From: an uncultured Gammaproteobacteria bacterium
Lineage (GTDB): Bacteria; Pseudomonadota; Gammaproteobacteria; UBA6429; Thiohalophilaceae
DNA: 64,000 nucleotides
Assembly (NCBI GenBank): GCA_913064945.1
Contig: CAJYAN010000002.1
Span: 124,001 to 188,000 of the forward strand
Reading direction: 5' to 3'
The notes under the pieces are model-generated. The model saw only the letters and a list, made by a program, of their open reading frames with translations, did no database searches and had not been told where the DNA came from. The translations under genes and the position numbers were made by a program. How positions within the stretch are numbered: the stretch's first letter is position 1; every line of letters begins with the position of its first letter. Below, one piece after another: positions 31,632-54,423 of the stretch.

Positions 31632-32831
31632 ATGTTGACGACTGAAAAACTTTTAGCATTAATCGGAAGAGATGATGTTCTTTTTAAAGAAGATCTGGAA
31701 AAAAATAAAAAACAAATCGAAAATATTGTTTCTAACTCTTCATTCCTTGTTCTGGGTGGCGCAGGCTCAATTGGGCAAGCGGTGACGAAAGAAATATTCA
31801 AACGCAACCCTAGGAAGCTTCATGTTGTAGATTTGAATGAAAATAACTTGACTGAACTGGTAAGAGATATTCGAAGCTCAAGCGGTTATATTGAAGGTGA
31901 TTTTAGAACCTTTTCATTGGATATTGGCTCTTTGGAATATGACGCTTTTATCAAATCCGATGGGCAGTATGATTATGTGTTGAATTTATCAGCGTTAAAA
32001 CACGTACGAAGTGAAAAAGATCCATACACTTTAATGCGAATGATTGATGTAAACATCTTTAATACTGAAAAAACCATAATTCAATCAATTGAAAATAAGT
32101 CAAAAAAGTATTTTTGCGTTAGCACAGATAAAGCTGCAAACCCAGTCAATATGATGGGCGCAAGCAAGAGAATTATGGAAATGTTTTTAATGAGACGCTC
32201 ATTAGGAGTGAATATTTCTACTGCAAGATTTGCAAATGTTGCGTTCAGTGATGGTTCACTTTTGCATGGTTTTAATCAACGCCTGGATAAACAACAACCA
32301 ATAACAGCGCCAAACGATATTAAAAGATATTTTGTTACACCCCAGGAAAGTGGTGAGCTATGCCTGATGAGTTGCTTGTTTGGCGAAAACAGAGACATCG
32401 TTTTTCCAAAATTAAGTGATGCTCTGCATCTGATTTCATTTGCCGATATTGCAGTTAAATATTTGACTGATAGAGGCTATGAACCATACTTATGCGAATC
32501 TGAGGATGAGGCACGTAGATTAGCAACAGTATTACCTGCGCAGGGTAAATGGCCATGTTTTTTTACAGAAAGTAATACAGTCGGCGAGAAGGATTTTGAA
32601 GAATTTTATACGGAAAATGAAATCCTGGATATGACAAGGTTTAAGAGCTTAGGGGTGATTAAAAACAATGCAGAATTCGATGATGCAAAGCTAAATGCTT
32701 TTGAGGAACATATTAATTTTCTAAAAAGCAATTTAAATTGGACGAAAGGACAGATAGTAGAACAGTTTTTTAAAATGATTCCAGATTTTTCTTACACGGA
32801 CTCAGGTTATTACCTTGATGGAAAAATGTAG
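31632..32831 (+). CDS. legB: LegB-type NDP-N-acetylglucosamine 4,6-dehydratase
   Basis: This 399-residue extended SDR of the CapD/FlaA1 type has GGAGSIGQAVTKEIF (42-56), STDKAANPVNMMGASK (164-179) with Met replacing the usual Tyr of the Tyr-x3-Lys motif as in this subfamily, and no membrane domain. It is immediately followed by a LegC-type aminotransferase (2 bp), the NulO pathway order legB-legC. PtmE downstream points to a GDP-linked substrate, as in the Campylobacter legionaminate route; a UDP-linked substrate is the alternative. Confidence 0.85.
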   Translation: MLTTEKLLALIGRDDVLFKEDLEKNKKQIENIVSNSSFLVLGGAGSIGQAVTKEIFKRNPRKLHVVDLNENNLTELVRDIRSSSGYIEGDFRTFSLDIGSLEYDAFIKSDGQYDYVLNLSALKHVRSEKDPYTLMRMIDVNIFNTEKTIIQSIENKSKKYFCVSTDKAANPVNMMGASKRIMEMFLMRRSLGVNISTARFANVAFSDGSLLHGFNQRLDKQQPITAPNDIKRYFVTPQESGELCLMSCLFGENRDIVFPKLSDALHLISFADIAVKYLTDRGYEPYLCESEDEARRLATVLPAQGKWPCFFTESNTVGEKDFEEFYTENEILDMTRFKSLGVIKNNAEFDDAKLNAFEEHINFLKSNLNWTKGQIVEQFFKMIPDFSYTDSGYYLDGKM

Positions 32832-32833
32832 TA

Positions 32834-33973
32834 ATGCGCGGCCTCGTTAATTTTGTTCGAGATTTATACCAAACTGATGGTTTCATTCCATTGCACGAAC
32901 CCAGGTTTTGCGGCAATGAAAAGAAATATTTATTGAACTGTATTGATTCAACATTCGTTTCATCTGTTGGCGAGTTTGTTGATCTATTTGAAGATGAGGT
33001 TGCAAAATATACTGGTGCAAAGTATGCAATTGCAACCAGTAACGGGACATCTGCACTTCATGCTTCACTAATATTAGCTGATATTTCAATTAATGACGAA
33101 GTTATCACGCAATCATTGACATTTGTCGCTACGTCTAATGCGATTCGTTATTGTAATGCTATACCAGTATTCTTAGATGTTGATAAAGATACGCTGGGCC
33201 TATCGCCAATAAGTTTACAGACATTCCTCGACGATAACACTAAAGTAATAGATGGAAAATGTATAAATATACATACAGACAGGATTGTTAAAGCTTGCGT
33301 ACCTATGCATACTTTTGGCCACCCTTGTCGAATAGATAAGATTAAAGAAATATGTGAAAAACATCATATTACGGTTATTGAAGATTCTGCAGAAAGCTTG
33401 GGTAGTTTTTATAAAAATAAACACACAGGTGTCTATGGAGATATGGGCGTATTAAGTTTTAATGGCAATAAAATCATTACCACAGGTGGTGGCGGCATGA
33501 TTTTGACTAATAATAAAGAAAGCGCAATTAGAGCAAAACATATCACAACAACTGCCAAAGTGCCACACCGTTGGGCATTTGAGCATGATACTGTCGGTTA
33601 CAATTATAGACTGCCAAATCTTAATGCTGCGTTGGGTCTGGCCCAAATAGAATTATTACCCGAATTTTTGGAAAGTAAGCGTAGACTTGCGCTGCAGTAT
33701 CAGGAGTGGGGCGAGGATAATGGTATTACATTTTTAAAAGAGCCGGAAAATTGTAAATCAAACTATTGGTTAAACGGTTTAATAGCATTTGATAGTTCTA
33801 AACGTGATGAAATACTGGATTATACAAATAATAGAAAAGTTATGACGCGACCGCTTTGGTTGCCAATGCATATGCTGCCGATGAATCGTGATTTTTATCG
33901 AGATACAATGACTAACACAGAATGGTTGTACAATAGAGTGGTTAATATACCTAGTAGTGTGATAGGAAAATGA
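32834..33973 (+). CDS. legC: LegC-type sugar aminotransferase
   Basis: This DegT/DnrJ/EryC1-family PLP aminotransferase has 379 residues. The N-terminus LVNFVRDLYQTDGFIPLHEP is characteristic of the LegC subfamily. ATSNGTSALH marks the phosphate-binding region, and the PLP lysine is Lys213 in SFNGNKIITTGGGG. It should aminate C4 of the 4-keto-6-deoxy intermediate from LegB. Its 3' end overlaps legG by 4 bp. Confidence 0.87.
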   Translation: MRGLVNFVRDLYQTDGFIPLHEPRFCGNEKKYLLNCIDSTFVSSVGEFVDLFEDEVAKYTGAKYAIATSNGTSALHASLILADISINDEVITQSLTFVATSNAIRYCNAIPVFLDVDKDTLGLSPISLQTFLDDNTKVIDGKCINIHTDRIVKACVPMHTFGHPCRIDKIKEICEKHHITVIEDSAESLGSFYKNKHTGVYGDMGVLSFNGNKIITTGGGGMILTNNKESAIRAKHITTTAKVPHRWAFEHDTVGYNYRLPNLNAALGLAQIELLPEFLESKRRLALQYQEWGEDNGITFLKEPENCKSNYWLNGLIAFDSSKRDEILDYTNNRKVMTRPLWLPMHMLPMNRDFYRDTMTNTEWLYNRVVNIPSSVIGK

Positions 33974-35136
33974 CCGCAAAGAGAAAAATTTGTGTTGTTA
34001 CTGGGACGCGTGCTGAGTATGGTCTTTTGTATTGGTTAATGAAAGAAATATATGCAGATAATGATCTCGAGCTACAAATAATAGCTACAGGAATGCATTT
34101 ATCTCCAGAATTTGGTTTGACATATAAACAGATAGAAAATGATGGATTCATAATTAACAACAAAGTTGAAATGTTACTTTCTTCGGATAGTGAAGTTGGT
34201 ATTACAAAATCATTAGGGTTAGGGCTGATTGGAATTGCTGATGCCTACAATGAATTAAAGCCAGATTTAGTCGTATTATTGGGTGACCGGTTTGAGACAT
34301 TTGCGGCGGCGGCGGCGGCGACTCTTGCAAAAATTCCCATTTCTCATCTGCATGGAGGTGAAATTACTGAAGGCGCGTTTGATGAGGCTCTGCGTCACTC
34401 AATAACAAAAATGTCTCATCTCCATTTTACTTCTACTGATGAATATAAAAATCGTGTCATCCAGCTAGGTGAGCAGCCAGAACGTGTGCATAATGTAGGC
34501 GCTGTTGGTATTGACAATATTATGAAACTCAAACTCCTATCAAGGGAGGAGTTCGTCGCTTCTATTGGTTTTAACCTGGCGAATAAAAATTTACTTGTAA
34601 CATTTCATCCGGTGACTTTAGAAAATTCTACTGCAGCCCAACAATTTAAATATTTACTTGATGCTATAGATGTACTGAAGGAAACAAATATTATTTTTAC
34701 AAAATGTAATGCGGATACTGACGGACGTATCATTAATAACCTAATAGATCGCTATGTCGACAATCACCCTGAAAAATCTATTGCGTTTACATCCCTTGGG
34801 CAATTGAGGTATCTATCTGCAATGCAATATGTTGATGGTGTTGTAGGTAATTCTTCAAGTGGCTTGTTAGAAGCGCCAAGTTTTAAGATTGGTACGATTA
34901 ATATCGGTGATCGACAAAAAGGTCGTATTAAAGCAAAAAGTGTTATTGATTGTGAGCCTATTGTTGAAGATATATTAAATGGATTCGCTGTGCTTTATTC
35001 GCGAGAGTTTCGTGATAATTTACAAACGGTAGTAAATCCGTATGGGAGTGGCGGGGCTACAGATAAAATTTTGCATGTTATAAAAAATTCGCCATTAAAA
35101 AATATCTTAAAGAAACAGTTTTATGATTTGTCGTAA
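33970..35136 (+). CDS. legG: NeuC/LegG-type hydrolysing NDP-sugar 2-epimerase
   Basis: This 388-residue GT-B-fold 2-epimerase releases the nucleotide while inverting C2. Motifs are VVTGTRAEYGLLYWLM at the N-terminus, GDRFE, and HLHGGEITEGAFDEALRHSITK. It is LegG rather than NeuC by position between legC and legI. A run of six GCG codons (34303-34320) encodes six alanines within the helix after GDRFETF; the repeat is in frame. Confidence 0.88.
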   Translation: MTAKRKICVVTGTRAEYGLLYWLMKEIYADNDLELQIIATGMHLSPEFGLTYKQIENDGFIINNKVEMLLSSDSEVGITKSLGLGLIGIADAYNELKPDLVVLLGDRFETFAAAAAATLAKIPISHLHGGEITEGAFDEALRHSITKMSHLHFTSTDEYKNRVIQLGEQPERVHNVGAVGIDNIMKLKLLSREEFVASIGFNLANKNLLVTFHPVTLENSTAAQQFKYLLDAIDVLKETNIIFTKCNADTDGRIINNLIDRYVDNHPEKSIAFTSLGQLRYLSAMQYVDGVVGNSSSGLLEAPSFKIGTINIGDRQKGRIKAKSVIDCEPIVEDILNGFAVLYSREFRDNLQTVVNPYGSGGATDKILHVIKNSPLKNILKKQFYDLS

Positions 35137-35177
35137 CATTGTTTTATGTGTAGATTGATTTTTAGCAATATAGTTGG

Positions 35178-36290
35178 ATGCCCTGTATGAATGTTGCCAG
35201 AAGTAATGAGCCTGTCTATATTATAGCGGAAGCAGGTGTTAATCATAATGGTAATAAAGACCTTGCATATCAATTGATTGATGTGGCTGTGGCAGCTGGT
35301 GCGGATGCAGTTAAATTCCAGACATTCAGGGCAGAGAACCTTGTCACAATAGATGCTGATAAGGCAGATTATCAGAAACAAACAACAAATTCAGATGAAA
35401 CTCAGTTCGCTATGCTAAAGCGACTTGAGTTGGAATATGATGTCCACCATGAGCTACTAACGTACTGTGATAAAAATGGTATTGATTTTTTATCAACGGC
35501 TTTTGATATGGAAAGCCTTGATTTTTTAGTTAATGAACTAAAGCTAAAGACCTTAAAAATTCCGTCAGGTGAAATTACTAATGCGCCATTAATTTTGGCG
35601 CATGCAATGACGGATTGTAATTTAATATTATCGACAGGGATGGCTAGACTATCAGAGATAGAGGCAGCGCTAGGGGTGTTGGCATATGGCTTACTATCTA
35701 ACAATGAAATAAATTTTATGCCATCTAAGAAAGAGTTTGAAAAGGCATATTTGTCTGAGGCTGGTCAAAAAAAATTAAATGAGAAAATCACAATATTACA
35801 TTGTACTAGTGAATATCCCGCCCCACCTGAAGAAATAAATTTGAATGCGATGATAAGCATGAAAAACGCATTTGGGTTAAAGATCGGATATTCTGATCAT
35901 AGTGAAGGTATCGTGGTTCCTATAGCAGCAGTTTCGCTAGGTGCAGGGTTAATTGAAAAACATTTTACTTTGGATAAATCTTTCCCTGGCCCGGACCATA
36001 AGGCATCTCTCGAGCCAGGCGAACTAAAAGAAATGGTGGCTGCAATTAGAACTGTTGAAAAAGTTATGGGCACAGGTATTAAAGGTCCAATGCCTTCTGA
36101 ATTTAAAAACAGGGATATTGTGAGAAAGAGTATTTATGCAACGACAGATATTAAAATAGGTGAAACATTTACAGAATACAATATTGGTATGAAAAGACCT
36201 GGTACAGGAATCAGTCCTATGGAATATTGGGAGATATTAGGTAACGTTGCAGAACGTTCATATTCAAAAGAGGAAATAATTAAAAAGTGA
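35178..36290 (+). CDS. legI: Legionaminic/N-acetylneuraminic acid synthase family enzyme
   Basis: This 370-residue NeuB-type TIM barrel condenses a 6-deoxy diacetamido sugar with PEP. Canonical catalytic elements are intact: IIAEAGVNHNG (Glu18, His23), AVKFQTF (Lys47), LKIPSGEITN, CTSEYPAP, GYSDHSEG and IEKHFTLD. The C-terminal SAF (antifreeze-like) domain covers about residues 300-370. An alternative ATG three codons in (35187) is possible. LegI rather than sialic acid synthase is inferred from legB and legC. Confidence 0.9.
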   Translation: MPCMNVARSNEPVYIIAEAGVNHNGNKDLAYQLIDVAVAAGADAVKFQTFRAENLVTIDADKADYQKQTTNSDETQFAMLKRLELEYDVHHELLTYCDKNGIDFLSTAFDMESLDFLVNELKLKTLKIPSGEITNAPLILAHAMTDCNLILSTGMARLSEIEAALGVLAYGLLSNNEINFMPSKKEFEKAYLSEAGQKKLNEKITILHCTSEYPAPPEEINLNAMISMKNAFGLKIGYSDHSEGIVVPIAAVSLGAGLIEKHFTLDKSFPGPDHKASLEPGELKEMVAAIRTVEKVMGTGIKGPMPSEFKNRDIVRKSIYATTDIKIGETFTEYNIGMKRPGTGISPMEYWEILGNVAERSYSKEEIIKK

Positions 36291-36937
36291 ATGGTAATCC
36301 GGTCATCATTCTGGGTGCTGGTGGGCATGCAAAAGTTATTGCGGACATCCTTAGAATAACAAATCGAAAAATCCTTGGTTTTGTAACACCCGATGCAAAA
36401 CCTCAAATGGAATTTTTTGGATCCGTGATTCTAGGAGATGATTCATTTATTGAAAAATATTCTACTGACGAAATAAACTTAGTAAATGGTATTGGCTCGC
36501 TGCCTGATCAAGACATAAGATGGGTGGTTGCTGAGAATTTACGTAACAAGGGTTATCGGTTTCAACAGGTGATTCATCCGAATGCCGTCATAGCGAGAAA
36601 CGTTACCCTTGAAGAAGGAATTCAAATTATGGCTGGTGTCATAATCCAACCAGATGTAAAAATTGGTACAGATTCAATCATAAATACCGGGGTTATCATA
36701 GATCATGATTGCGTTATTTCGGATAACTGCCATCTGGCGCCGGGTGTTTGTTGTAGTGGTAGTGTTTCTGTTGGAAAAAATGTGCACATTGGGACTGGTG
36801 CAAATATTATTCAGGGAGTAAATATTGGTGAAAAAACTGTTATTGCAGCAGGCACTACGTTGTATAAAGATATACCTCCTGGGTCTCTAGTGAAAGAGCG
36901 GAAAAATCTTGGAATTGAAGATTTGGGTGAAGAATAA
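36287..36937 (+). CDS. NeuD/PglD/LegH-like sugar acyltransferase
   Basis: This 216-residue protein has an N-terminal Rossmann-like part (VIILGAGGHAKVIADIL) and a C-terminal left-handed beta-helix of hexapeptide repeats (VIARNVTLEEGIQIMAGVII onward), with the His-based catalytic stretch NTGVIIDHDCVI. It starts at GTG overlapping the legI stop. It is the best candidate for the LegH N-acetyltransferase step, the only leg step otherwise missing. A NeuD-like O-acetylase is the alternative. Confidence 0.82.
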   Translation: MNGNPVIILGAGGHAKVIADILRITNRKILGFVTPDAKPQMEFFGSVILGDDSFIEKYSTDEINLVNGIGSLPDQDIRWVVAENLRNKGYRFQQVIHPNAVIARNVTLEEGIQIMAGVIIQPDVKIGTDSIINTGVIIDHDCVISDNCHLAPGVCCSGSVSVGKNVHIGTGANIIQGVNIGEKTVIAAGTTLYKDIPPGSLVKERKNLGIEDLGEE

Positions 36938-36938
36938 C

Positions 36939-37991
36939 GTGTATAAGTGGAGGAATGTAATTCTTAAACAAACAGACGATATGAAGTCGGCTATAGAAGT
37001 GCTAAATACTGAAGCGCTGCGTATCGTCATAATTGTGGATGATGACGAACGTCTTGTTGGAACTGTGACGGATGGAGATATCAGACGTGGTCTTATAAAT
37101 CATCTAACGATGGATAGTACAATCAAAGAATTTATGTACACAGATCCAACTGTGGCATATGAAGAAGATAGTCGTGAATCAATTCTAGACAAAATGAAAA
37201 AACTTAACATTTTTCAGATTCCAATCATTGATGCAAACAGGAAAGTTGTTGGTCTTGAAACGTTACAACATTTATTAGAAAAAGCCAGATATGATAACGC
37301 AGTATTTCTCATGGCGGGTGGATTTGGTAAAAGATTACGTCCGTTAACTGACAATCTTCCTAAGCCGTTGCTTAGAATTGGCGAGAAGCCCATACTTGAA
37401 ACTATTCTTGAACAGTTCATTACCACTGGTTTTCATAATTTTTACATATCAACACATTACAAAGCAGAGTTAGTAAAGAAACATTTTGGAGATGGTAGTA
37501 AATGGGATGTTTCAATAAAATATATCTATGAAGATAAACCGCTTGGCACAGCCGGTGCACTTGGCTTGCTACCGAAAGATGCTGTGGACTTACCATTAAT
37601 TATGATGAATGGTGATCTCCTAACAAAAATCGATTTTGAAAAGTTGTTGAAGTTCCATGTTAAGCAGGGTGGTGACGCAACTATGTGTGTACGTGCATAT
37701 GATTTTCAAGTCCCATATGGAGTGATAAAGGCAGATGGTAACCGTATTACAAATATTATTGAAAAACCAATTTATAAATTCTTTGTGAATGCTGGTATCT
37801 ATGTGCTTGGCAAGTCTATTATTGAATCTGTCGATGGGAAAACATATCTAGATATGCCGAATATGCTCGAATCAAAAATTGAACAAGGGGGTAAGGTCAA
37901 TATGTTTCCGGTGCATGAATACTGGTTGGATATTGGAAGAATGGAACAATTCGAACAAGCTCAACGAGACAACGAAACAGAATTTAATTAG
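36939..37991 (+). CDS. ptmE: PtmE-like CBS-domain sugar-1-phosphate nucleotidyltransferase
   Basis: The protein has two CBS motifs (residues 1-120, with GTVTDGDIRRGLI) followed by a nucleotidyltransferase domain (MAGGFGKRLRPLTDNLPKPLL, then NGDLL and IIEKP). In Campylobacter the same architecture makes GDP-glucosamine-type precursors for legionaminate. The GTG at 36939 is chosen because it lies 1 bp past the previous stop and gives a start (VYKWRNVILKQ) like relatives; longer TTG or GTG starts would overlap the preceding gene. Product about 350 residues. Confidence 0.85.
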   Translation: MYKWRNVILKQTDDMKSAIEVLNTEALRIVIIVDDDERLVGTVTDGDIRRGLINHLTMDSTIKEFMYTDPTVAYEEDSRESILDKMKKLNIFQIPIIDANRKVVGLETLQHLLEKARYDNAVFLMAGGFGKRLRPLTDNLPKPLLRIGEKPILETILEQFITTGFHNFYISTHYKAELVKKHFGDGSKWDVSIKYIYEDKPLGTAGALGLLPKDAVDLPLIMMNGDLLTKIDFEKLLKFHVKQGGDATMCVRAYDFQVPYGVIKADGNRITNIIEKPIYKFFVNAGIYVLGKSIIESVDGKTYLDMPNMLESKIEQGGKVNMFPVHEYWLDIGRMEQFEQAQRDNETEFN

Positions 37992-38002
37992 AGGATTTTA
38001 TC

Positions 38003-39034
38003 GTGAATAGCACATTCATAATTGCAGAAATGGCCTGGGCGCATGATGGCTCAATTGAAAAGTCTATAAACATAATGAACGCCGCGAAGGATTCGGGTGC
38101 TGATGCAATTAGTATACACTTAACAGAACTGTCAACATACATGGTCCCACATTATGGTAGTGGTGAAGGTCGTGTGTCAGCAGGCAGGGAAAACATGGAA
38201 GTGTACAAGTATCTTGACGACATTAATATCAATAATGACGACTGGAAAGTTTTTTGTGAAGCAGCGCGTAAAAAAGATATTAAATTATGCATTATGCCAA
38301 ATGATATGAATAGTCTGCAATTTTGTGAAAAAAATATTGAACCAGATTTCTATGTGTTATCGGCTGCTGCATTTGTTGAAAAAGAGTTTATCACCGCAGT
38401 AGCGAAGACGGAGCGTCAAACTATTTTCCGTGTTGGTGGAGCTACTATTGGTGAAATTGAAAATGCTGTGAATATATTTAAAGATAATAATGGCGGCGAA
38501 GTTACTCTTTTACATGGATTTCAAAATTACCCAACAAAGCTTGAAGATACAAACCTCCTTCAGATGCGATCATTAAAAGCACTCTTTGGCGTGCCTGTTG
38601 GATTGGCTGATCATATCGACGGAAGCGATCCCTTGGCAAAAGTAGTTCCTGCTATGTCTATTGCACTTGGTGCTTCTGTAATCGAAAAGCATATAACGTG
38701 GAACAGAGACGAGAAAGGAGAGGATTTTGAAGCTGCACTAAACCCCGCGGATTTTAAAGAATTTGTATCATATGTCCGTGGTTGTGAGATTGCTTTAGGT
38801 CAGGAATGCTGGGGTCAACTATCCGATGCAACGAAGCGTTATCGTGATGTCTCGCGGAAGCGTATGGTTGCGGCTCGGGATATTAAGTCTAACAAGGTCA
38901 TTGAGCGAGATGATATAACCTTTAAGAGAGCAGATGTAGGGATAAGCCCTGCCGATGCAGAGTATGTGATTGGCAGGACTGCCAAAGTTGATTTGAATGA
39001 AAATGACGGCATTACCCTGGGAGATCTTCTTTGA
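38003..39034 (+). CDS. Divergent NeuB-fold paralogue with SAF domain
   Basis: This 343-residue protein aligns along its length with NeuB/LegI but is altered at the active site. Glu9 and His14 (IIAEMAWAHDG), Asp203-His204 (GLADHIDG) and Glu228-Lys229-His230 (SVIEKHIT) are kept, so the metal site looks intact. The two PEP-binding lysines are replaced: the AVKFQ position reads AISIH (Ser37) and the KIPSG position reads YVLSA (Tyr117). A SAF domain occupies about 285-343. It starts at GTG and overlaps the next gene by 4 bp. A new acid-sugar synthase, or an enzyme using another ketoacid, is inferred. Confidence 0.75.
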   Translation: MNSTFIIAEMAWAHDGSIEKSINIMNAAKDSGADAISIHLTELSTYMVPHYGSGEGRVSAGRENMEVYKYLDDININNDDWKVFCEAARKKDIKLCIMPNDMNSLQFCEKNIEPDFYVLSAAAFVEKEFITAVAKTERQTIFRVGGATIGEIENAVNIFKDNNGGEVTLLHGFQNYPTKLEDTNLLQMRSLKALFGVPVGLADHIDGSDPLAKVVPAMSIALGASVIEKHITWNRDEKGEDFEAALNPADFKEFVSYVRGCEIALGQECWGQLSDATKRYRDVSRKRMVAARDIKSNKVIERDDITFKRADVGISPADAEYVIGRTAKVDLNENDGITLGDLL

Positions 39035-39792
39035 AAATAGGCTGTTTATTATCTGTCCGTGAGAAGGCTACCCGACTTCCGGGTAAGGTATTATTGGATA
39101 TAGCAGGCAAGCCTGTAACCGCTTGGTTACTGTCACGTTTATCTATGGCAAATGAAATTGATCAAGTTATTTTATCAACTTCGACGCATGAAGATGATGC
39201 AGTTCTTGAAACTCTAGCGATAACTGAAAGTTTTGCTTCATATCGTGGTAGTGAAGACGATAAATTAAAGCGATATTACGATACGGCGCTAGCATATGAG
39301 CTTGACGCTGTCGTTATAGTGGATGGTGATGATCCATTCTGTTTTCCTGAAGTTGTAGACAGGGTTGCTTTAGAGCTGCGTTCAAATATGTTTGACTGTG
39401 TGTATGTTTCAGGTTTGCCGCTGGGTGCGGCGTCTACTGGATTAACTGTCGCCGCGTTACGTAAAGTTCTCGAAATAAAGGATGAAGAAGATACCGAGGT
39501 ATGGGGTGGTTATTTTATCAATTCAGGGAAGTTTGATAGCAAAGAAATAAAGATCGAGGAAAAAATTTATCAACATCCTGAAATCAGATTGACATTGGAT
39601 TATCAGGAAGATTATGAATTCATTACGAAAGTGATCGAGAAGTTGAGGTATAGAAAAGATTTTTCATCTGAAGAGTTAATGAGATTGCTAGTTGTTGATA
39701 ATCCAGAATTAGTAGCAATTAATGCGGATGCGCAAAAGCGTTATGAGGCTCATATACAAAACGCGGCACCTGTGAAATTTAAAGAGGTCTAA
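39031..39792 (+). CDS. SpsF/NeuA-like cytidylyltransferase
   Basis: This 253-residue nucleotidyltransferase has LLSVREKATRLPGKVLLDIAGKPV, matching the SpsF-type cytidylyltransferase group, and VIVDGDDPF for metal binding. The NeuA/LegF hallmark (SKGIPxKN-type loop) is absent, and no other CMP-sugar synthetase is in the window. It therefore activates either the legionaminate, the product of the neighbouring paralogue, or both. The TTG start overlaps the preceding gene. Confidence 0.78.
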   Translation: MKIGCLLSVREKATRLPGKVLLDIAGKPVTAWLLSRLSMANEIDQVILSTSTHEDDAVLETLAITESFASYRGSEDDKLKRYYDTALAYELDAVVIVDGDDPFCFPEVVDRVALELRSNMFDCVYVSGLPLGAASTGLTVAALRKVLEIKDEEDTEVWGGYFINSGKFDSKEIKIEEKIYQHPEIRLTLDYQEDYEFITKVIEKLRYRKDFSSEELMRLLVVDNPELVAINADAQKRYEAHIQNAAPVKFKEV

Positions 39793-39797
39793 ACAAA

Positions 39798-40811
39798 ATG
39801 CAAAATTTGAAATTCACAGTGGTTGGTTTGGGTTCTATGGGTAAACGACGCGTGCGAAACTTACTGGCTAATGGGGTTTCGGTAAATCATATAAAAGGAG
39901 TTGACTGTAAGCCGGAGCGTGCTTCTGAAGCATCCGATAAATATGGAATTCAAACTTATGCTGAACTTTCAGATGAAATTATCAAGTTCTCGGATGCGTT
40001 TATAATCTCTACTCCGCCCGATCAACATTTATTATACGCAAAAGAGGCTGCAGAAAATAATATACATATGTTTATTGAGGCGAGCGTGTTGTCAGAAGGA
40101 TTAGAAGAGCTGGCAGCGCAAGTTAGAGAAAAAAAACTGATTGCTTTTCCATCTTGCACAATGAGATTTTTCCCTGGTCCTAAGAAAGTAAATGAAACGA
40201 TAACTAGTGGGAAAATTGGAAAAGTCTTGGCATGGCAATATCAAAGTGGGCAATATCTACCAGACTGGCACCCATGGGAATCAATAAAAGACTTTTATGT
40301 ATCAAACCCTCTAACGGGTGGTTGTCGTGAAATTGTCCCTTTTGAAATGGTATGGTTGGAGCCTGTTTTTGGTAAGGTCGTTGATGTAGATGCAAGGCAT
40401 GCAAAATTATCAGATATGCCTGCTGAAATTGACGACATATATATGCTACAACTTCGTCATGAAAGCGGAACATTAGGGCAACTAATCGTTGATGTGTTAG
40501 GCCGAACAGCAATCCGGTATCTAAGAGTAACTGGTTCAAAGGGTACCTTAGAATGGGATGATAGCACGAAAAAGGTTCGAGTTTTTTCAACGAATGACAA
40601 TGCGTGGCATGAGGAAAACTTTGGCGAAGGTACCGTTGAATCAAATTATATTAATCCTGAGGAGCCATATATTGAAGAAATTGGAAATTTCATTGATTGT
40701 ATTGCGTCAGGTAAAGAACCACTGTATACGTTGGAAAATGATGTTGATATTTTAAATATCTTATATAAAGCTGAAAAAGCAGATAATGAAAATAAACGTG
40801 TTAAAGTATAA
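39798..40811 (+). CDS. Gfo/Idh/MocA-family protein with altered catalytic motif
   Basis: The 337-residue protein has an N-terminal NAD fold (FTVVGLGSMGKRRVRNLL) and the C-terminal Gfo/Idh beta-sheet domain. The usual Glu-Lys-Pro motif is Glu-Ala-Ser (94-96, MFIEASVLSE). The later Asp/His motif region is changed to GGCREIVPFEMVWLEP. Loss of these residues suggests different chemistry or a redox role with other residues. PtmF-type proteins in flagellar glycan loci are a possible comparison. It sits in the second acid-sugar module. Confidence 0.75.
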   Translation: MQNLKFTVVGLGSMGKRRVRNLLANGVSVNHIKGVDCKPERASEASDKYGIQTYAELSDEIIKFSDAFIISTPPDQHLLYAKEAAENNIHMFIEASVLSEGLEELAAQVREKKLIAFPSCTMRFFPGPKKVNETITSGKIGKVLAWQYQSGQYLPDWHPWESIKDFYVSNPLTGGCREIVPFEMVWLEPVFGKVVDVDARHAKLSDMPAEIDDIYMLQLRHESGTLGQLIVDVLGRTAIRYLRVTGSKGTLEWDDSTKKVRVFSTNDNAWHEENFGEGTVESNYINPEEPYIEEIGNFIDCIASGKEPLYTLENDVDILNILYKAEKADNENKRVKV

Positions 40812-40864
40812 TGGGTATCAGTTTTAATTTGAGTAAATTTAACAGACGACATTGAAGATCATAT

Positions 40865-42223
40865 ATGAACTATAAAAAAAGACTAAATGCGGTTATCCCA
40901 GGCGGCGCTCATACCTATTCGCGAGGTCATGACCAATTCCCATCTAATGCACCAGAAATCCTCTCAAAAGGGAAAGGAGCATATGTGTTTGATGCGGATG
41001 GTCGCCGCTATCTTGATTACGGCATGGCGTTACGTGCAGTAAACATTGGTTATGCGGAAGATGAAATTGATAATGCTGCATTTGAACAAATTAAGAATGG
41101 CAATAATCTAACGCGCCCTTCATTAATTGAACTGGAGGCTGCGGAACTTCTTGTGGATTTAATAGATTCAGTCGATATGGTTAAATTCACAAAAAACGGT
41201 TCAACATCAGTATCCGCTGCAGTCAAACTAGCACGAGCATATACTAATCGTGACCTGGTTGCACGTTGCTCACAACATCCATTTTTTTCATACGACGACT
41301 GGTTTATTGGTTCTACACCGCTAACAAAAGGAATACCTCAATCTACAATAAGCCAAACAAAGATGTTTAACTATAATGATATTAATTCATTAAAATCTTT
41401 GGTCGATGAATATCCAGGACAGATTGCATGCGTAGTGCTTGAACCAGCAGCTGGTGATTGCCCTTCAGTAGATGGAAAGCAAGGCTGTTGCAGCGAGAAG
41501 GTATGCAATAGATACCAAGATAAGTCTGCCGAAAAAAACTTTTTACAAGAAGTGCAAGAATTATGTAATAAGAACGGCATTGTTTTTATACTCGACGAAA
41601 TGATAACTGGCTTCAGATGGCACATGAAAGGAGCGCAATACTTATATGGTGTAGAACCTGACTTGTGTACATTTGGCAAGGCAATGGCAAATGGATTTTC
41701 TGTGTCTGCTATTGCGGGTAAGAAAGAATTGATGGAACAAGGCTCGATTGATAAAATTGGCCAGGAAAGACTGTTTTTACTGTCAACAACTCATGGCGCT
41801 GAAATGTGTGGTCTTGGTGCATTTGTAAAAACTGTCGAATATATGCAGCATGAAAATGTTATTAGTCATTTGTGGGATTACGGATTCAGACTTAAAGAAT
41901 TAATCAATCAGCTAGCACTAGAGTATGATATTAATACTAGTTTTATAGCAAAAGGACCGTCATGCTCTCCGTTATTTCTGACCTATGATAAAAATGGGGA
42001 GATTTCTTTTGCATTGCGAACATTGTTTTTACAGGAAATGATTAAAAATGGAGTTTTGATGCCATGGTTAGCATTATGTTTTAGGCATGGAGATGAAGAG
42101 TTCCAAATCACTGAAAATGCACTAAGAGCTGCATTTAAGGTTTATAAAATTGGTCTAGAAGAAGGTGTGTCGAAATTAATTGATGGTGATGTTATTAAAC
42201 CAGTTTTCAGGAAATTTAATTAA
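40865..42223 (+). CDS. Class III aminotransferase, glutamate-1-semialdehyde aminomutase-like
   Basis: This 452-residue PLP enzyme resembles HemL: NAVIPGGAHTYSRGHDQFP at the N-terminus, ILDEMITGFR (Asp244 for the PLP nitrogen) and the PLP lysine Lys272 in TFGKAMANGFSVSAIAG. It is not a haem gene by context. A short cysteine-rich insert (Cys199, 208, 209, 214) between the LEPAAGD motif and the next helix is unlike typical HemL. It ends 1 bp before the nitrilase gene. Transamination or aminomutation of a sugar-acid intermediate is inferred. Confidence 0.78.
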   Translation: MNYKKRLNAVIPGGAHTYSRGHDQFPSNAPEILSKGKGAYVFDADGRRYLDYGMALRAVNIGYAEDEIDNAAFEQIKNGNNLTRPSLIELEAAELLVDLIDSVDMVKFTKNGSTSVSAAVKLARAYTNRDLVARCSQHPFFSYDDWFIGSTPLTKGIPQSTISQTKMFNYNDINSLKSLVDEYPGQIACVVLEPAAGDCPSVDGKQGCCSEKVCNRYQDKSAEKNFLQEVQELCNKNGIVFILDEMITGFRWHMKGAQYLYGVEPDLCTFGKAMANGFSVSAIAGKKELMEQGSIDKIGQERLFLLSTTHGAEMCGLGAFVKTVEYMQHENVISHLWDYGFRLKELINQLALEYDINTSFIAKGPSCSPLFLTYDKNGEISFALRTLFLQEMIKNGVLMPWLALCFRHGDEEFQITENALRAAFKVYKIGLEEGVSKLIDGDVIKPVFRKFN

Positions 42224-43006
42224 ATGAAAATCGGCCTGGTTTCCCTTGAACAAGTGTGGGAAAAAAAACTATCAAATCTCATTGTGTGTGAAAACTATTT
42301 TAAACTCGCACGCAAAAATGATATAAAGCTTATAATATTTCCTGAAATGACTTTAACAGGATTCTCAACGAATGTTATTGAAATAGCCGAAGAAAGCACA
42401 TCCTCTAGTTCAATAAGCGAATTTAAGCGTCTGGCTTCAAATTATAAAATATCATGTATTTTTGGTGTTGTTAGATCTAAAAATGGAAAATATTTTAATG
42501 ATTCAGTTTATATTGATGAAAATGGTACAGTAAAAGGCGAGTACTCTAAGATTCATCCATTCTCATTTTCAGGAGAAGATAAATATTATGCTGCCGGTGA
42601 GAGGATATGCGTTGTTGAAGATTGTGGTTTAAGTATAGGTTTGACGATATGTTATGATTTACGATTTCCTGAATTGTTTACTGCATTAGCAAAAAATTGT
42701 GACATGATTGTCAATATTGCAAACTGGCCAAAACGAAGGGTGGAACACTGGAAGGCGCTAATAAAAGCCAGGGCTATAGAGAGTCAGGTTTTTGTTGCTG
42801 GTGTTAATCGGATTGGTGTAGACGGGAATAACTTAGAATATGTAGAAAGCAGTAGCATTTTTAATGCTGATGGTGTCGAACTAGATTACATTCATATTAA
42901 TAATATGAAAATTGCTACTGTAGATAAAAACTGGACAAAAGAATTCAAAAGTAAATTTTTGACAGTTAAAGACCGAAACATCAGCTTATATAAAGAGATT
43001 ATATAG
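42224..43006 (+). CDS. Carbon-nitrogen hydrolase (nitrilase superfamily)
   Basis: The 260-residue protein has the complete nitrilase triad Glu41 (FPEMTLTGF), Lys109 (YSKIHPF) and Cys143 (TICYDLRFPE). Such enzymes cleave amides or carbamoyl groups, or run in reverse as amide synthases. In a polysaccharide locus this suggests trimming or forming an amide on an amino- or acid-sugar. It is tightly packed with the aminotransferase before it and the SDR after it (0-1 bp gaps). Confidence 0.85.
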   Translation: MKIGLVSLEQVWEKKLSNLIVCENYFKLARKNDIKLIIFPEMTLTGFSTNVIEIAEESTSSSSISEFKRLASNYKISCIFGVVRSKNGKYFNDSVYIDENGTVKGEYSKIHPFSFSGEDKYYAAGERICVVEDCGLSIGLTICYDLRFPELFTALAKNCDMIVNIANWPKRRVEHWKALIKARAIESQVFVAGVNRIGVDGNNLEYVESSSIFNADGVELDYIHINNMKIATVDKNWTKEFKSKFLTVKDRNISLYKEII

Positions 43007-43777
43007 ATGCTTAGCGATAAGGTTGTCGTTGTTACTGGTGGGGCTGGGCTTCTTGGCCAAGAGTTTATAAGAACAATAGTAAAAAATAAGGGTATAGCGA
43101 TCATCGCTGATATAAACAAAGATACGGCGAAAGAGACTAAAGATGAATTATCAGATGAGCTTGAAACGTGTGAAATAGATTTCGTAGAGCTTGATATAAC
43201 ATCAAAAATATCACTAACTTTAGCTATTAAATATCTTGATGCAAAGTTTGGAAAAATAGACGCACTTGTAAATAATGCATACCCGCGAAATAAGGCGTAT
43301 GGCAGACAATTTTTCGATGTTACTTATGAAGATTTTCTTGAAAATGCCGGTATGAACATTGGCGGTTATTTTCTGGTATCTCAGCAATTTGCACAATATT
43401 TTAATGCGCAGGGTTTTGGGAATATTATTAACTTGTCGTCTATATATGGTGTGATTGCACCGAGATTTGAAGTGTATGATAAGACTCAAATGACGATGCC
43501 AGTTGAATATGCTGCGATAAAAGCAGCTCTAATTCATCTAACTCGATATATGGCAAAATACTTTAAAGGAATGAATATAAGGGTTAATGCAATAAGTCCA
43601 GGAGGTATATTAGATCGCCAGCCTGATGAGTTTGTTTCTGCATACAATAATAATTGCATGACTAAGGGAATGTTAAGAAAATCGGATATTAATGGTACTT
43701 TGTTGTATCTGTTAAGTGACTTGAGTCAATATGTGAATGGCCAGAATATTATTGTAGATGATGGCTATTGTTTATAA
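43007..43777 (+). CDS. Short-chain dehydrogenase (PtmA-like)
   Basis: This 256-residue classical SDR has VVVTGGAGLLGQEF, VNNAYPRNKAYG, INLSSIYG (Ser) and EYAAIKAAL (Tyr-x3-Lys). The YPRN and long IYGVIAPRFEVYDKTQM segments resemble PtmA-type SDRs of flagellin-modification loci. It closes the second acid-sugar module. Confidence 0.83.
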   Translation: MLSDKVVVVTGGAGLLGQEFIRTIVKNKGIAIIADINKDTAKETKDELSDELETCEIDFVELDITSKISLTLAIKYLDAKFGKIDALVNNAYPRNKAYGRQFFDVTYEDFLENAGMNIGGYFLVSQQFAQYFNAQGFGNIINLSSIYGVIAPRFEVYDKTQMTMPVEYAAIKAALIHLTRYMAKYFKGMNIRVNAISPGGILDRQPDEFVSAYNNNCMTKGMLRKSDINGTLLYLLSDLSQYVNGQNIIVDDGYCL

Positions 43778-43785
43778 AATTCGCT

Positions 43786-44778
43786 GTGAACAAAAAAATA
43801 TTATTAATTTCGCAATCACCTAGTGATATTCGTTTTGTACTAACATTATATGAAAAATATAAAGATAGTTATGATGTTGAAATTATAGTTGTAGGTGTCA
43901 AAAATAATTATCATTTTTTGTGCCAATCACTTCCAAGCCATAATGTCCAATTTGTATCGATTCCAAAGTTTAGGGAATATATAAAGTTACTTTCTTTTAG
44001 TTTTGTGCTAAGAAGTTTAAGGAAGAAATTAGTACAAAAATACAAAGATGATCATATTTATTTTTTTTCGCGTTTTGGTGATTATGCGACAGCATATCTA
44101 ATAGATGCACTGAAGAAAAATAATACAATATTATACGTAGATAGTGTTTATAGTTATGTAAGTGAAATAATTGAGCCGAACCAGAGTGTTGTGCTTAATA
44201 TAAAAGGAAAAATAAAAAAGAATTATTTGAGATATTTATTATTTTTTGAGATGAAATTTGTAAATATATCAGGACCGGCTGTCGAGTATTATGATACTAA
44301 AAATAATGTTAGTGATATATCAATAACAATTGATGAAAAAGTATATTCCAAATACGGATATTCAGTTGAGTGCGCACACAAAAAGAAAAGTATATTATTC
44401 TTTGAATCTAATGGCATGACAGAGAGCTATTTTGAAAAATATGACATAGAACTGAAATTGATCATCGATTTTCTGTGTGATAAATATGATTTGTATATTA
44501 AACCACATCCATCGCACGGCTCGTCATCAGTGTGGGATGAATATGACGTGAACTTTCTCCCAGGCTACATTCCTGCCGAATTTATCAATGTTGAGAGTTT
44601 TGATAAGGTGGTTGGTATAGAAAGTGCTGCCCTGGCAAACATACGGCATCCAAAAAAAGTTAGCTTAATAAATTTTTTTGGATTTACCGATGAATCAATA
44701 AAACATAATTTTCAAAAATATATTACCAATCATTCTATAGATGATGTTTCGTTTCCTTGTAATATTAATTTCGTATAG
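43786..44778 (+). CDS. Sialyltransferase-like glycosyltransferase (GT-B, HP motif)
   Basis: This is a 330-residue protein. Seen directly are KPHPSHGSS (His241-Pro242), LPGYIPAEFINV (259-270) and SFDKVVGIESAALAN (271-285). Bacterial GT38/GT52/GT80 sialyltransferases share an HP motif followed by a serine-containing motif in this arrangement, so it is a candidate transferase for the CMP-nonulosonate. The GTG at 43786 is preferred to the TTG at 43768, which would overlap the SDR. Family assignment is by motif only. Confidence 0.62.
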   Translation: MNKKILLISQSPSDIRFVLTLYEKYKDSYDVEIIVVGVKNNYHFLCQSLPSHNVQFVSIPKFREYIKLLSFSFVLRSLRKKLVQKYKDDHIYFFSRFGDYATAYLIDALKKNNTILYVDSVYSYVSEIIEPNQSVVLNIKGKIKKNYLRYLLFFEMKFVNISGPAVEYYDTKNNVSDISITIDEKVYSKYGYSVECAHKKKSILFFESNGMTESYFEKYDIELKLIIDFLCDKYDLYIKPHPSHGSSSVWDEYDVNFLPGYIPAEFINVESFDKVVGIESAALANIRHPKKVSLINFFGFTDESIKHNFQKYITNHSIDDVSFPCNINFV

Positions 44779-51568: not shown

Positions 51569-52339
51569 ATGATGAAACAATCGATTGATAAAAAAATTGA
51601 ACAAGAGCGGTACAATGAAAGAGCAAAAAAATTACTAGGCTCCAGAATTGATAAATCATTAACTGGTTCAAATTCAGTTGCGATAAGCCATCGCTCCCCT
51701 TATCTTCGTTACGAAAAATTAATACTGGAAAATATTAAAGATGCTAACTCGTGTGTATTGGAATTAGGTGCTGGGACTGGGGCATTTACTGAATGTCTAT
51801 TAAATACAGGTGCAAAAGTATTGGCCACAGATATATCTGAAGCATCATTAGAGATACTACAGAAACGGTTTGCTAAATATAAGAATATTTCCGTAAAGGC
51901 AGCTGACCTGGAATTTCTCCCTTTTGATGACAATACTTTTGACTTTGTTACAAGTGCAGGTAGCTTGAGTTATGGAGACAACATGCTCGTTTTGAATGAG
52001 ATTTATCGGGTGCTTAAACCTAATGGAATGTACATTGCTGTTGATTCTCTGAATCACAACCCCGTTTATATGCTGAATAGATGGATACACTATCTACGAG
52101 GCAGGCGAACCTTAAGTACTTTAAAAAGAATGCCAACAACAAATTTAATTGATATATATAGAAAACAATTTGGGCAAAGTAGTGTTTATTACTTTGGCTC
52201 AATTACCTGGATAGTGCCTTTCTTTAAAATTTTCTTGTCAGAGAAAAAAATATCAATGACTATTGACTACTTTGATAAAATTGTAAATGTAAAAAAGTCA
52301 GCATTTAAATTTGTGATGTGCGTGAAAAAGGTCAACTAA
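51569..52339 (+). CDS. Class I SAM-dependent methyltransferase
   Basis: The 256-residue protein has motif I VLELGAGTGAFTE (63-75), the acidic motif VLATDISEASL and the post-II segment FDFVTSAGSLSYGDN, of the Methyltransf_11 type. The stop overlaps the next ATG (TAATG). It may methylate the sugar made by the ThDP/aminotransferase genes downstream or act on the glycan; no substrate is recognisable. Confidence 0.8.
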   Translation: MMKQSIDKKIEQERYNERAKKLLGSRIDKSLTGSNSVAISHRSPYLRYEKLILENIKDANSCVLELGAGTGAFTECLLNTGAKVLATDISEASLEILQKRFAKYKNISVKAADLEFLPFDDNTFDFVTSAGSLSYGDNMLVLNEIYRVLKPNGMYIAVDSLNHNPVYMLNRWIHYLRGRRTLSTLKRMPTTNLIDIYRKQFGQSSVYYFGSITWIVPFFKIFLSEKKISMTIDYFDKIVNVKKSAFKFVMCVKKVN

Positions 52340-53385
52340 TGAATGATTTAGATATTAATCAAGTTAATTACCTAATAGATCCAGCTAATTGCCATAATCC
52401 AATATATATAAAGGGTTGCGATACTAATGATCTCATTAATTATCTGAAAATGATGATGATGATTCGCAAAGTTGAACAAAAACTCGCCATAGGAAGAAGA
52501 GATGGATTTATCGGTGGACCTGTACACTTAGGTGTTGGACAAGAAGCAATTGCTGTTGGTGTTTCTGGATCATTAACATGTGATGATAGAATATTTGGTG
52601 CACATCGTTCGCATTCTCATTTGCTTGCATTAAACCCTGATCCATATCGTCTCTTCGCGGAAGTGCTTGGTAAAGTAACTGGATTTTCACGCGGTATGGG
52701 TGGATCAATGCATTTATGGGATGGACCCAGTGGGTTTTATGGGTCTGTTCCGATTGTATCAGGTACAGTATCCTTGGCTGTTGGTGCGGCGATGGCTGCC
52801 AGACTTCAAAAAACCAATCACATTGCAGTTGCTTATTTTGGTGATGGTGCGATGGAAGAAGGGGTAGTTCACGAATCACTCAATCTTGCTCGTATTCAGG
52901 AATCCCCCGTATTATTCGTTGTAGAAAATAATCTATTTGCAAGCCACATGCATATTTCACTACGCCAACCTTCAGATATGCAATCGCGCTTTGCTGTAGC
53001 AAATCACATCCCATATAAATTAGCAGATGGAAATGATGTCGTTGCTGTGAAAAATGCTGCTTCAGAATTAATCACACACTCACGAAATGGCCAGGGACCT
53101 GGTTTCCTGGAATTAATTACTTATCGATGGTATGGCCACGTTGACTGGCGTGATGATATAGACGTTGGAGTCCATCGTTCACTTGATGATGTTGATAACT
53201 GGCGTATGCGAGATCCTGTTACGCGTCTGTCGAAAGCAATGATTGAGCAGGGAATCTGGTCTGCTGAAGAAGAGAAGAAATTGATTAGTATGCTAGATAA
53301 TCAAATTAGCGATGCCTGGGAAAAAGCAATGAACGATTCATATCCTGATGAAAGCGCCACATTAAATTGCGTCTATGAAATTTAA
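52339..53385 (+). CDS. ThDP-dependent dehydrogenase E1 alpha-like subunit
   Basis: This 348-residue protein is related to pyruvate/acetoin dehydrogenase E1 alpha. GxVHLGVGQEAIAVG, HRSHSHLLA, GMGGSMHL and the ThDP motif GDG (168-170) through ENN (196-198) are present. No E2 or E3 gene is nearby, so it is unlikely to serve a central oxoacid dehydrogenase complex. The ATG at 52339 has AAGGT upstream and overlaps the previous stop; an earlier GTG at 52318 is less likely. Two-carbon transfer onto a sugar is one inferred role. Confidence 0.85.
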   Translation: MNDLDINQVNYLIDPANCHNPIYIKGCDTNDLINYLKMMMMIRKVEQKLAIGRRDGFIGGPVHLGVGQEAIAVGVSGSLTCDDRIFGAHRSHSHLLALNPDPYRLFAEVLGKVTGFSRGMGGSMHLWDGPSGFYGSVPIVSGTVSLAVGAAMAARLQKTNHIAVAYFGDGAMEEGVVHESLNLARIQESPVLFVVENNLFASHMHISLRQPSDMQSRFAVANHIPYKLADGNDVVAVKNAASELITHSRNGQGPGFLELITYRWYGHVDWRDDIDVGVHRSLDDVDNWRMRDPVTRLSKAMIEQGIWSAEEEKKLISMLDNQISDAWEKAMNDSYPDESATLNCVYEI

Positions 53386-53399
53386 GAACTGAATGAGGA

Positions 53400-54392
53400 A
53401 TGATTTTGAAAGTCAAGAAACAAAATTATGGCACGGCGATCTGCTCAGCATTCGAATATTTATTAGAGAAATATCCTGAAGTATTTGTTATAGGGCAAGG
53501 CTTATGGAGCCCGTGGTATGTAGGCAACTCCATGACTGATCTTGATAAAAAATTCGGAGTTGAAAGGATCATAGACACGCCGGTTTCAGAATCTGCCTGT
53601 ACTGGCGCAGCTGTTGGCGCATCACTGTCTGGGATGCGACCAATTTTAGTGCATCCTAGAATGGATTTTATGTTATATGCAATGGATGCAGTAGTTAATC
53701 AAGCAGCAAAGTGGTCACATATGTTTGGTGGGCAGGCTCATCCTGCAGTGACAATAAGATCGATTATTAATCGTGGTGGTGAGCAAGGTGCTCAACATTC
53801 TCAGGCACTACACTCCTGGTTTGCTCATGTTCCAGGTTTGCGAGTTGTTATGCCTTCGACTGTTAAGGACGCAAGAGATTTATTAATAGCATCAGTGTTA
53901 TGTAATGACCCCGTAATCTATATTGATGATCGCTGGTTGTATGAGCAAGAAGATGACTTGCCTCCTATAGAAGAACTAAGCCTTGCAGCACAAGGCCCAG
54001 CTTGCTTACGAAAGGGGGCTGATATAACGTTGGTGGGTTCAGGTTTTTCCACGTACCTTGCAAATAAAGCAGCTGAGATTCTGGGTAAACAAGCAGTGTC
54101 AGTTGAGGTGATTGATATACGAATTCTTAATCCATTTGATGCTTCACTTATTATAGAATCTGTCGAGCGTACAGGTGTGCTTTTAGTGGTAGATTTAGGC
54201 TGGAGAAATTCTGGATTTGCAGCTGAGGTTATTGCTCGCGTAACAGAAAATGTTGGAACGGATGTTCTTAAATGTAGACCTAGAAGAATAACATTGCCAG
54301 ATGCGCCTGCACCTACTTCGCGAGCGCTGGAATCAAGATATTATACAAGTACTGATGAAATCATTAATACCGTTAAAGAACTTTTATCTTAA
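53400..54392 (+). CDS. ThDP-dependent dehydrogenase E1 beta-like subunit
   Basis: The 330-residue partner of the E1 alpha-like protein has TPVSESACTGAAVGASLSG, RGGEQGAQHSQ and a transketolase C-terminal domain (VEVIDIRILNPFD). Alpha and beta together would form a complete ThDP site. Absence of lipoyl carrier genes suggests the acyl-ThDP intermediate goes to a small-molecule acceptor, here probably a sugar. Confidence 0.85.
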   Translation: MILKVKKQNYGTAICSAFEYLLEKYPEVFVIGQGLWSPWYVGNSMTDLDKKFGVERIIDTPVSESACTGAAVGASLSGMRPILVHPRMDFMLYAMDAVVNQAAKWSHMFGGQAHPAVTIRSIINRGGEQGAQHSQALHSWFAHVPGLRVVMPSTVKDARDLLIASVLCNDPVIYIDDRWLYEQEDDLPPIEELSLAAQGPACLRKGADITLVGSGFSTYLANKAAEILGKQAVSVEVIDIRILNPFDASLIIESVERTGVLLVVDLGWRNSGFAAEVIARVTENVGTDVLKCRPRRITLPDAPAPTSRALESRYYTSTDEIINTVKELLS

Positions 54393-54423
54393 ATCTAACA
54401 CTTAACTTAATTTGGATAGTTAT

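Follow-up and report, generated by a model that had tools for sequence, protein, structure and literature searches.

A surface-polysaccharide locus of an uncultured gammaproteobacterium encodes, directly behind its legionaminate genes, a paralogue of the nonulosonic acid (NulO) synthase NeuB that keeps the full-length fold, the metal ligands, the sugar-side residues and the SAF-domain arginine of NeuB, LegI and PseI, while the contacts to phosphoenolpyruvate (PEP) are replaced. The locus lies in a stretch of 64,000 nucleotides (the window; positions 124,001 to 188,000 of contig CAJYAN010000002.1, here C2) from a genome of 3.2 Mb that is 100% complete. The paralogue, here called N2, opens a group of six tightly packed genes on the + strand that fills positions 38003-43777 and also encodes an SpsF-type cytidylyltransferase (CT), a Gfo/Idh oxidoreductase, a class-III aminotransferase, a nitrilase-family hydrolase and a short-chain dehydrogenase (SDR) (Table 1). 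Our analyses support N2 as a genuine NeuB paralogue that is conserved and under selection and whose PEP site has changed; judging from its residues, N2 most likely lacks PEP-condensing activity. We tentatively propose that N2 is the founder of a widespread unnamed family of NeuB fold without PEP chemistry, which would catalyze a new metal-dependent step of epimerase, isomerase or aldol type, tied to CT and giving, in bacteria and archaea, a legionaminate isomer that is unrecorded or rarely recorded. The recurrence of N2 beside CT in such clusters of many bacterial phyla and some archaea makes it probable that the legionaminate-type pathway includes an as yet undescribed step.

A NeuB fold with a rebuilt pocket

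The AlphaFold model of N2 (predicted local distance difference test, pLDDT, 92.3) comprises the NeuB barrel and the SAF (antifreeze-like) domain and matches PseI and NeuB (PDB 1xuu, 8h2c) over the full length of the fold (VIA Z ~33, Foldseek TM 0.82-0.85). Its profile scores reach only about half of the curated cut-offs, with 210.8 bits against 399.65 for NeuB_NnaB (TIGR03569) and 183.8 against 340.25 for PseI (TIGR03586).

N2 was aligned to the NeuB of Neisseria meningitidis, whose numbering is used below, and to the LegI of the window, and an alignment of 27 N2 sequences was compared with 38 ordinary NeuB, LegI and PseI proteins encoded in these or in related loci. The NeuB active site also includes Lys53, His236 and Asp247. 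The other active-site residues follow published lists (PMC7371886, PMC6795526). In the N2 of the window, Lys53, Thr110, Lys129 and Ser213 correspond to Ser37, Met98, Val118 and Ala202, respectively. Across the family, Lys129 is found in none of the 27 N2 proteins and in all 38 ordinary NeuBs, as is Ser213, which is Ala in 26 N2. Thr or Ser at position 110 (36/38 ordinary NeuBs) is equally missing from N2, where Leu or Met occurs in 26 proteins, and Gln55 (37/38) persists in a single N2, the other 26 having His. Lys53, present in all 38 ordinary NeuBs, is kept in 16 of the 27 N2 and is lost only in the sub-branch of the window. The first-pass annotation of this DNA had described a NeuB-like protein with a retained metal site and both PEP lysines replaced, by Ser37 and Tyr117. 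The alignments agree with this description and with Ser37, but they place Val118, one residue further, opposite Lys129; moreover, the loss of both lysines holds for the protein of the window and not for the family, whose constant losses are those of Lys129, Thr110 and Ser213. A search of the open-access literature found no demonstration that homologues with the same substitutions act as ordinary synthases.

The equivalents of Glu25, Tyr186, Asp214, His215, Glu234, His236, Asp247 and Arg314 do not vary among the 27 N2 wherever these positions are covered. The rebuilt pocket is highly conserved too (AExAWxHxG, ND, GG, GFQNYPT, ADH), the Ser-Thr-Gly loop of ordinary NeuBs being replaced, and in two of the three sub-branches it looks nearly charge-neutral. 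An Arg occupies position 143 (corresponding to Ser154) in 8 of the 27 N2, including that of the window, in whose sub-branch it is conserved. The LegI of the window keeps both PEP lysines and the motifs KFQTF, LKIPSGE, LSTGM, and YSDH.

Within N2, Lys53 is paired with Glu or Asp at position 129 in 16/16 cases, and its absence with a non-acidic residue there in 11/11. Three sister proteins (L065, L113, and L114), termed bridge proteins, keep both lysines according to their motifs, and in L065 (L065:9980-11776) and L114 (G510:C5) the bridge-type NeuB is fused to a cytidylyltransferase in a single protein of about 590 residues. Taken together, the pairing and the lysines of the bridge proteins form a readable series from Lys/Lys to Lys/Glu and then to neutral/neutral. 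On the tree, the last of these changes seems to have happened once, and the pattern at positions 53 and 129 would thus reflect history rather than independent covariation.

Distribution and selection of N2

N2 and the bridge proteins are separated from all 38 ordinary NeuBs in the tree (support 100/99), and N2 forms a single clade (99/94) with members in Bacteroidota, Pseudomonadota, Nitrospirota, Campylobacterota, Bacillota, Atribacterota, and four archaeal groups. Per genome, N2 is rare: a census retrieved three further matches, two of them bridge-type, in 298 Pseudomonadota genomes, three N2 in 246 Bacteroidota genomes, and no further N2 in 248 Campylobacterota genomes. About 22 of the 27 genomes with N2 also hold a clear ordinary NeuB, the remainder being metagenome assemblies.

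The ratio of nonsynonymous to synonymous substitution rates (dN/dS) was 0.034 for a Legionella pair and 0.124 for a second pair that differs at very few sites. These values indicate that N2 is under purifying selection and exclude a decaying gene. A viral origin was also rejected, since N2 was found neither in viral contigs nor in PHROGs and a phage collection held only distant NeuBs (22-25% identity). Among the plasmid matches listed, none exceeded 32% identity, and a search of E. coli genomes at the DNA level retrieved no N2.

Association with CT in a legionaminate operon

LegB, LegC, LegG, LegI and PtmE are all present together in the window, where they span positions 31632-37991 along with a NeuD/LegH-like acyltransferase, and the N2 module follows closely. 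PtmE is found at a similar place in clusters of Plesiomonas shigelloides (PMC4481668). CT immediately adjoins N2 in all N2 loci that are not interrupted by a contig end, and the distances of the two proteins are correlated (r = 0.82; 0/2000 permutations), although linked inheritance alone could give the same result. The commonest arrangement is LegB-LegC-(NeuD)-LegI-LegG-PtmE-N2-CT, with varying order, and a census blind to gene neighbourhood recovered three Bacteroidota genomes (G834, G873, and G937) in which Leg genes and PtmE are again followed by N2 and CT.

The motifs of CT are intact (an Arg/Lys-rich N-terminal motif, DGDD, and LTLDYxED), and it is the only strong cytidylyltransferase match of the genome other than KdsB. 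A genome-wide search for LegF, the NeuA-type synthetase of cytidine monophosphate (CMP)-legionaminate, found none and returned one strong match read as KdsB, CT itself, and one weak match. Because the genome holds no LegF, the product of LegI would have to be activated by CT, either directly or after N2. Profile searches recovered the six packed genes right after the Leg genes, with the families that the first-pass annotation had assigned. Its division of the locus into a near-complete legionaminate set and a second, separate acid-sugar pathway does not hold, as LegF is missing from the preceding set and from the whole genome, the only spare CMP-sugar synthetase sits in the module, and N2-CT occupies the slot of LegF in the operon.

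The complete set of six genes recurs, with its order unchanged, in a metagenome-assembled genome of Zoogloeaceae (L047), in Legionella moravica (L049) and in L. bononiensis (L050), so that the grouping first described in the window is indeed found elsewhere, and its recurrence in unrelated genomes is more than chance. Comparison of the window with L047 gives 68-72% identity for the first three genes of the module but 28-45% for the last three, from which we conclude that the right half of the module was exchanged. In two Aliarcobacter genomes, the synonymous divergence (dS) is 0.02-0.12 for N2, CT, the Gfo/Idh oxidoreductase and the aminotransferase vs 0.61 for LegI, which shows that this block moves as a cassette; such behaviour is supported for the N2-CT-PtmF block.

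Other families are also seen around N2. A gene of the YhcH/NanQ family (N-acetylneuraminate anomerase-like) stands beside it in about 10 distant loci, either downstream of CT or in the gap that separates N2 from PtmE (e.g., L059:10449-10895, L067:8161-8604, and L070:7107-7622), but not in the genome of the window. Radical SAM/SPASM proteins are encoded near N2 in L048 (L048:2590-3684), L052 (L052:7251-8243), L051, L053, and L056.

The other four genes of the module

The Glu-Ala-Ser motif of the Gfo/Idh oxidoreductase is real. The first-pass annotation had read it, together with the residues lost from N2, as a coordinated change of two enzymes. This argument was rejected, as the motif also occurs without N2, in a PtmF-like protein of G082/L038, and the unrelated Gfo/Idh proteins beside the distant N2 genes of L059 and L076 have Glu-Lys-Pro. 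The legionaminate cluster of G082/L038 comprises PtmE, LegF, the Glu-Ala-Ser protein, an aminotransferase and an SDR, without N2 or CT, and its Gfo/Idh protein is 44% identical to that of the window, with the common motifs FIEASV, QYLPDWHPWE, and GGCREIVPFE. By these motifs and by gene position, rather than by direct comparison with Campylobacter sequences, the oxidoreductase of the window was assigned to PtmF. Together with the SDR, which resembles PtmA, it belongs to types known as ordinary members of legionaminate clusters (PMC4481668). The TFGK motif with the pyridoxal phosphate lysine is conserved in the aminotransferase, and the nitrilase has, as first noticed, an intact Glu/Lys/Cys triad. 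An amidated or amino-acylated product, once suggested as possibly made by these genes, finds neither support nor contradiction here.

Possible roles of N2

The explanation that we favour, while giving it slightly less than an even chance, is a single extended legionaminate operon in which N2 would perform a PEP-independent step on a free sugar with its NeuB fold and CT would activate the product. We infer the following order of steps. LegB, LegC, the NeuD-like acyltransferase, LegG and LegI would build a free nine-carbon acid from a precursor linked to guanosine diphosphate (GDP), which would be supplied via PtmE, with PtmF and PtmA. The N2-CT pair would take the slot of the missing LegF, N2 acting on a free sugar of the pathway by metal-assisted epimerisation, isomerisation or aldol/retro-aldol chemistry without PEP, and CT would then make the CMP-sugar. 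The aminotransferase and the nitrilase may tailor a side group in the clade of the window. The near-neutral pocket makes a free hexosamine a slightly more likely substrate of N2 than the nine-carbon acid, and a retro-aldol C4-epimerase role is possible. Several points weigh against this explanation. Such a pocket fits the bound pyruvyl of a C4-epimerase less well than a free aldose. A PseF/LegF-like gene is also carried by L048, L056, L065, and L113, which makes the replacement of LegF less than universal and led us to reject the idea that N2 and LegF exclude each other. Arg143 could in principle form a new phosphate or carboxylate contact in the sub-branch of the window, and the bridge proteins, with both lysines and fused to or near CT, suggest that the pair may descend from an ordinary PEP synthase. 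Finally, the open-access literature yielded neither a structure nor an assay nor a glycan analysis for any N2 protein.

In NeuB, the domain bearing Arg314 reaches the active site of the other subunit, and N2 might be a non-catalytic partner that tunes specificity or channels substrates in a mixed dimer with LegI or in a complex with CT. The linkage to CT, the ordinary NeuB alongside in most genomes, the retained SAF domain and Arg309, and the CT fusion of the sister proteins would all agree with this role; we nevertheless deem it unlikely, given the invariant metal and sugar residues of the barrel and the conserved rebuilt pocket (GFQ-YPT, ADH, GG), needless in a scaffold. A somewhat better case can be made for N2-CT as a second synthase with its activator, N2 condensing PEP (via e.g. 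Arg143), pyruvate or another donor with an aldehyde into a second ulosonic acid, much along the lines of the first-pass annotation. The pairing resembles SpsE-SpsF of Bacillus subtilis (PMC7439481), both lysines are retained in those bridge proteins that carry a CT fusion, and Arg143 is present in the eight N2 mentioned above. Even so, this remains a minority possibility, because Lys129, Thr110 and Ser213 are replaced in all strict N2, often by Glu at position 129, and because no other CMP-sugar synthetase is left for the product of LegI, two parallel acids having to share CT.

Alternatively, CT, the Gfo/Idh oxidoreductase and the SDR might epimerise legionaminate at C8 or C7, with N2 as an accessory. 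EpaA (a cytidylyltransferase with an aldo-keto reductase) and EpaB (an SDR) convert pseudaminic acid (Pse) to its 8-epimer (8ePse) (PMC12053666), and Gfo/Idh and SDR genes follow N2-CT in the distant loci L059, L076, and L122 too. They are, however, missing from most distant N2-CT loci, those of the window resemble PtmF and PtmA, also present in ordinary legionaminate clusters (PMC4481668), and no aldo-keto reductase was found among the families of the module, which leaves this epimerisation rather improbable. Least probable by far is the role that Ricaldi et al. proposed for NeuB2 of Leptospira, in which N2 would resemble the animal synthases and use a phosphorylated sugar (NulO-9-phosphate type). 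LA_1613 is encoded at the same place, by gene order, and has a C-terminal phosphatase-like domain (PMC3438082, PMC4758666), but the N2 proteins examined showed no phosphatase domain, and N2 is devoid of the contacts to the PEP phosphate.

Comparison with known systems

The window shares LegB, LegC, LegG, LegI, NeuD/LegH, PtmE, and PtmF-like and PtmA-like genes, in one operon, with the GDP-route clusters of Campylobacter (ptm/leg) and P. shigelloides (PMC4481668), from which it differs by the absence of LegF and the additional N2, CT, class-III aminotransferase and nitrilase. The spsF gene of B. subtilis supports an SpsF-type step to CMP-legionaminate (PMC7439481), and by analogy we infer that CT transfers CMP to a nonulosonic acid. 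In SpsE-SpsF, too, a NeuB-family gene and an SpsF-type cytidylyltransferase belong together in a pathway to legionaminate (PMC7439481); however, SpsE is itself the synthase and keeps the PEP lysine in the alignment, whereas in the window LegI is encoded separately from N2, which has no PEP pocket.

In L. interrogans, LA_1613 (sas/neuB2) follows LegB/C, NeuD, NeuB, NeuC, and a nucleotidyltransferase and precedes neuA2 (PMC3438082, PMC4758666). Like N2, it closes a legionaminate-type cluster as the second gene of the NeuB family there, beside a second CMP-sugar synthetase, but it is fused to the phosphatase-like domain and was proposed by its authors to be an animal-like synthase of N-acetylneuraminic acid (PMC3438082, PMC4758666). 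Compared by gene order as published, the Leptospira NeuB2 may be a relative of N2. In Acinetobacter, EpaA-EpaB and the aci/ela modules combine cytidylyltransferase and oxidoreductase genes that alter the final NulO stereoisomer, and several K loci have the listed lga set without lgaG (PMC12053666, PMC5595891, PMC9676051). In the excerpts cited, the proteins of these modules are SDRs, oxidoreductases, aldo-keto reductases or cytidylyltransferases, without mention of a NeuB-like member, and the ela/aci modules were thus rejected as the same system. No description of a NeuB family without a PEP pocket was found in the open-access PMC literature, subscription papers being outside this search.

Genomic predictions of sialic-acid-like sugars often rely on homologues of NeuB. 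Should N2 not be a PEP synthase, they would be wrong for every cluster that bears it, possibly including those of pathogenic Leptospira. The proposed role would fill a gap in a pathway whose products mark many bacterial and some archaeal surfaces, perhaps with a new stereoisomer among them, and would represent a natural case in which a co-substrate site is lost while metal and sugar chemistry stay.

Genomic context

The surface-polysaccharide locus lies inside an island of low G+C content (0.32-0.40 over ~28-58 kb of the window vs 0.52-0.56 on the flanks, with one transitional step of 0.45), which is consistent with horizontal gain. The island (28000-58000) is located between uvrB and a Polysacc_synt_2 gene, with a tRNA-Val just outside.

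Table 1. Genes of the legionaminate operon and the N2 module, with window positions.
Feature	Positions	Strand	Evidence
LegB-type 4,6-dehydratase of nucleoside diphosphate-N-acetylglucosamine	31632..32831	+	74% identity to gene at same place in Aliarcobacter N2 loci; under FnlA/PseB cut-offs
LegC-family aminotransferase	32834..33973	+	TIGR04181 533.8 bits (cut-off 420)
LegG/NeuC-type hydrolysing 2-epimerase	33970..35136	+	PF02350 302.7 bits
LegI, ordinary NeuB-type synthase	35178..36290	+	TIGR03569 484.8 bits (cut-off 399.65)
NeuD/LegH-type hexapeptide acyltransferase	36287..36937	+	PglD_N and hexapeptide repeats
PtmE-type nucleotidyltransferase, N-terminal CBS pair (GDP-sugar branch)	36909..37991	+	Sugar-1-phosphate nucleotidyltransferase profiles, residues 131-354
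N2, NeuB-fold and SAF protein without PEP pocket	38003..39034	+	PF03102 158.7 bits, SAF 37.3 bits
CT, SpsF-type CMP-sugar synthetase	39031..39792	+	PF02348 75.9 bits; 4-base overlap with N2
PtmF-like Gfo/Idh oxidoreductase, Glu-Ala-Ser	39798..40811	+	GFO_IDH_MocA domains
Class-III (glutamate-1-semialdehyde aminomutase-like) aminotransferase	40865..42223	+	NF004856 667.7 bits (cut-off 486)
Nitrilase/amidase family hydrolase	42224..43006	+	PF00795 130.3 bits; FPEM, YSKIH, ICYDLRFPE
PtmA-like SDR	43007..43777	+	NF006619 364.2 bits (cut-off 255); FlagModPtmA 274.1 bits (cut-off 350)
Possible CMP-nonulosonate glycosyltransferase	43768..44778	+	Weak alpha-2,8-polysialyltransferase match, PF07388 22.4 bits, just below cut-off 23.3

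Homologues of the polysialyltransferase-like protein in the last row of Table 1, a candidate CMP-NulO transferase, are encoded downstream of N2-CT in L060 and L075. Further along the polysaccharide locus, positions 52318-55536 encode the unusual company of a two-subunit thiamine-diphosphate enzyme pair (E1_dh and transketolase-like) and an adjoining DegT aminotransferase.

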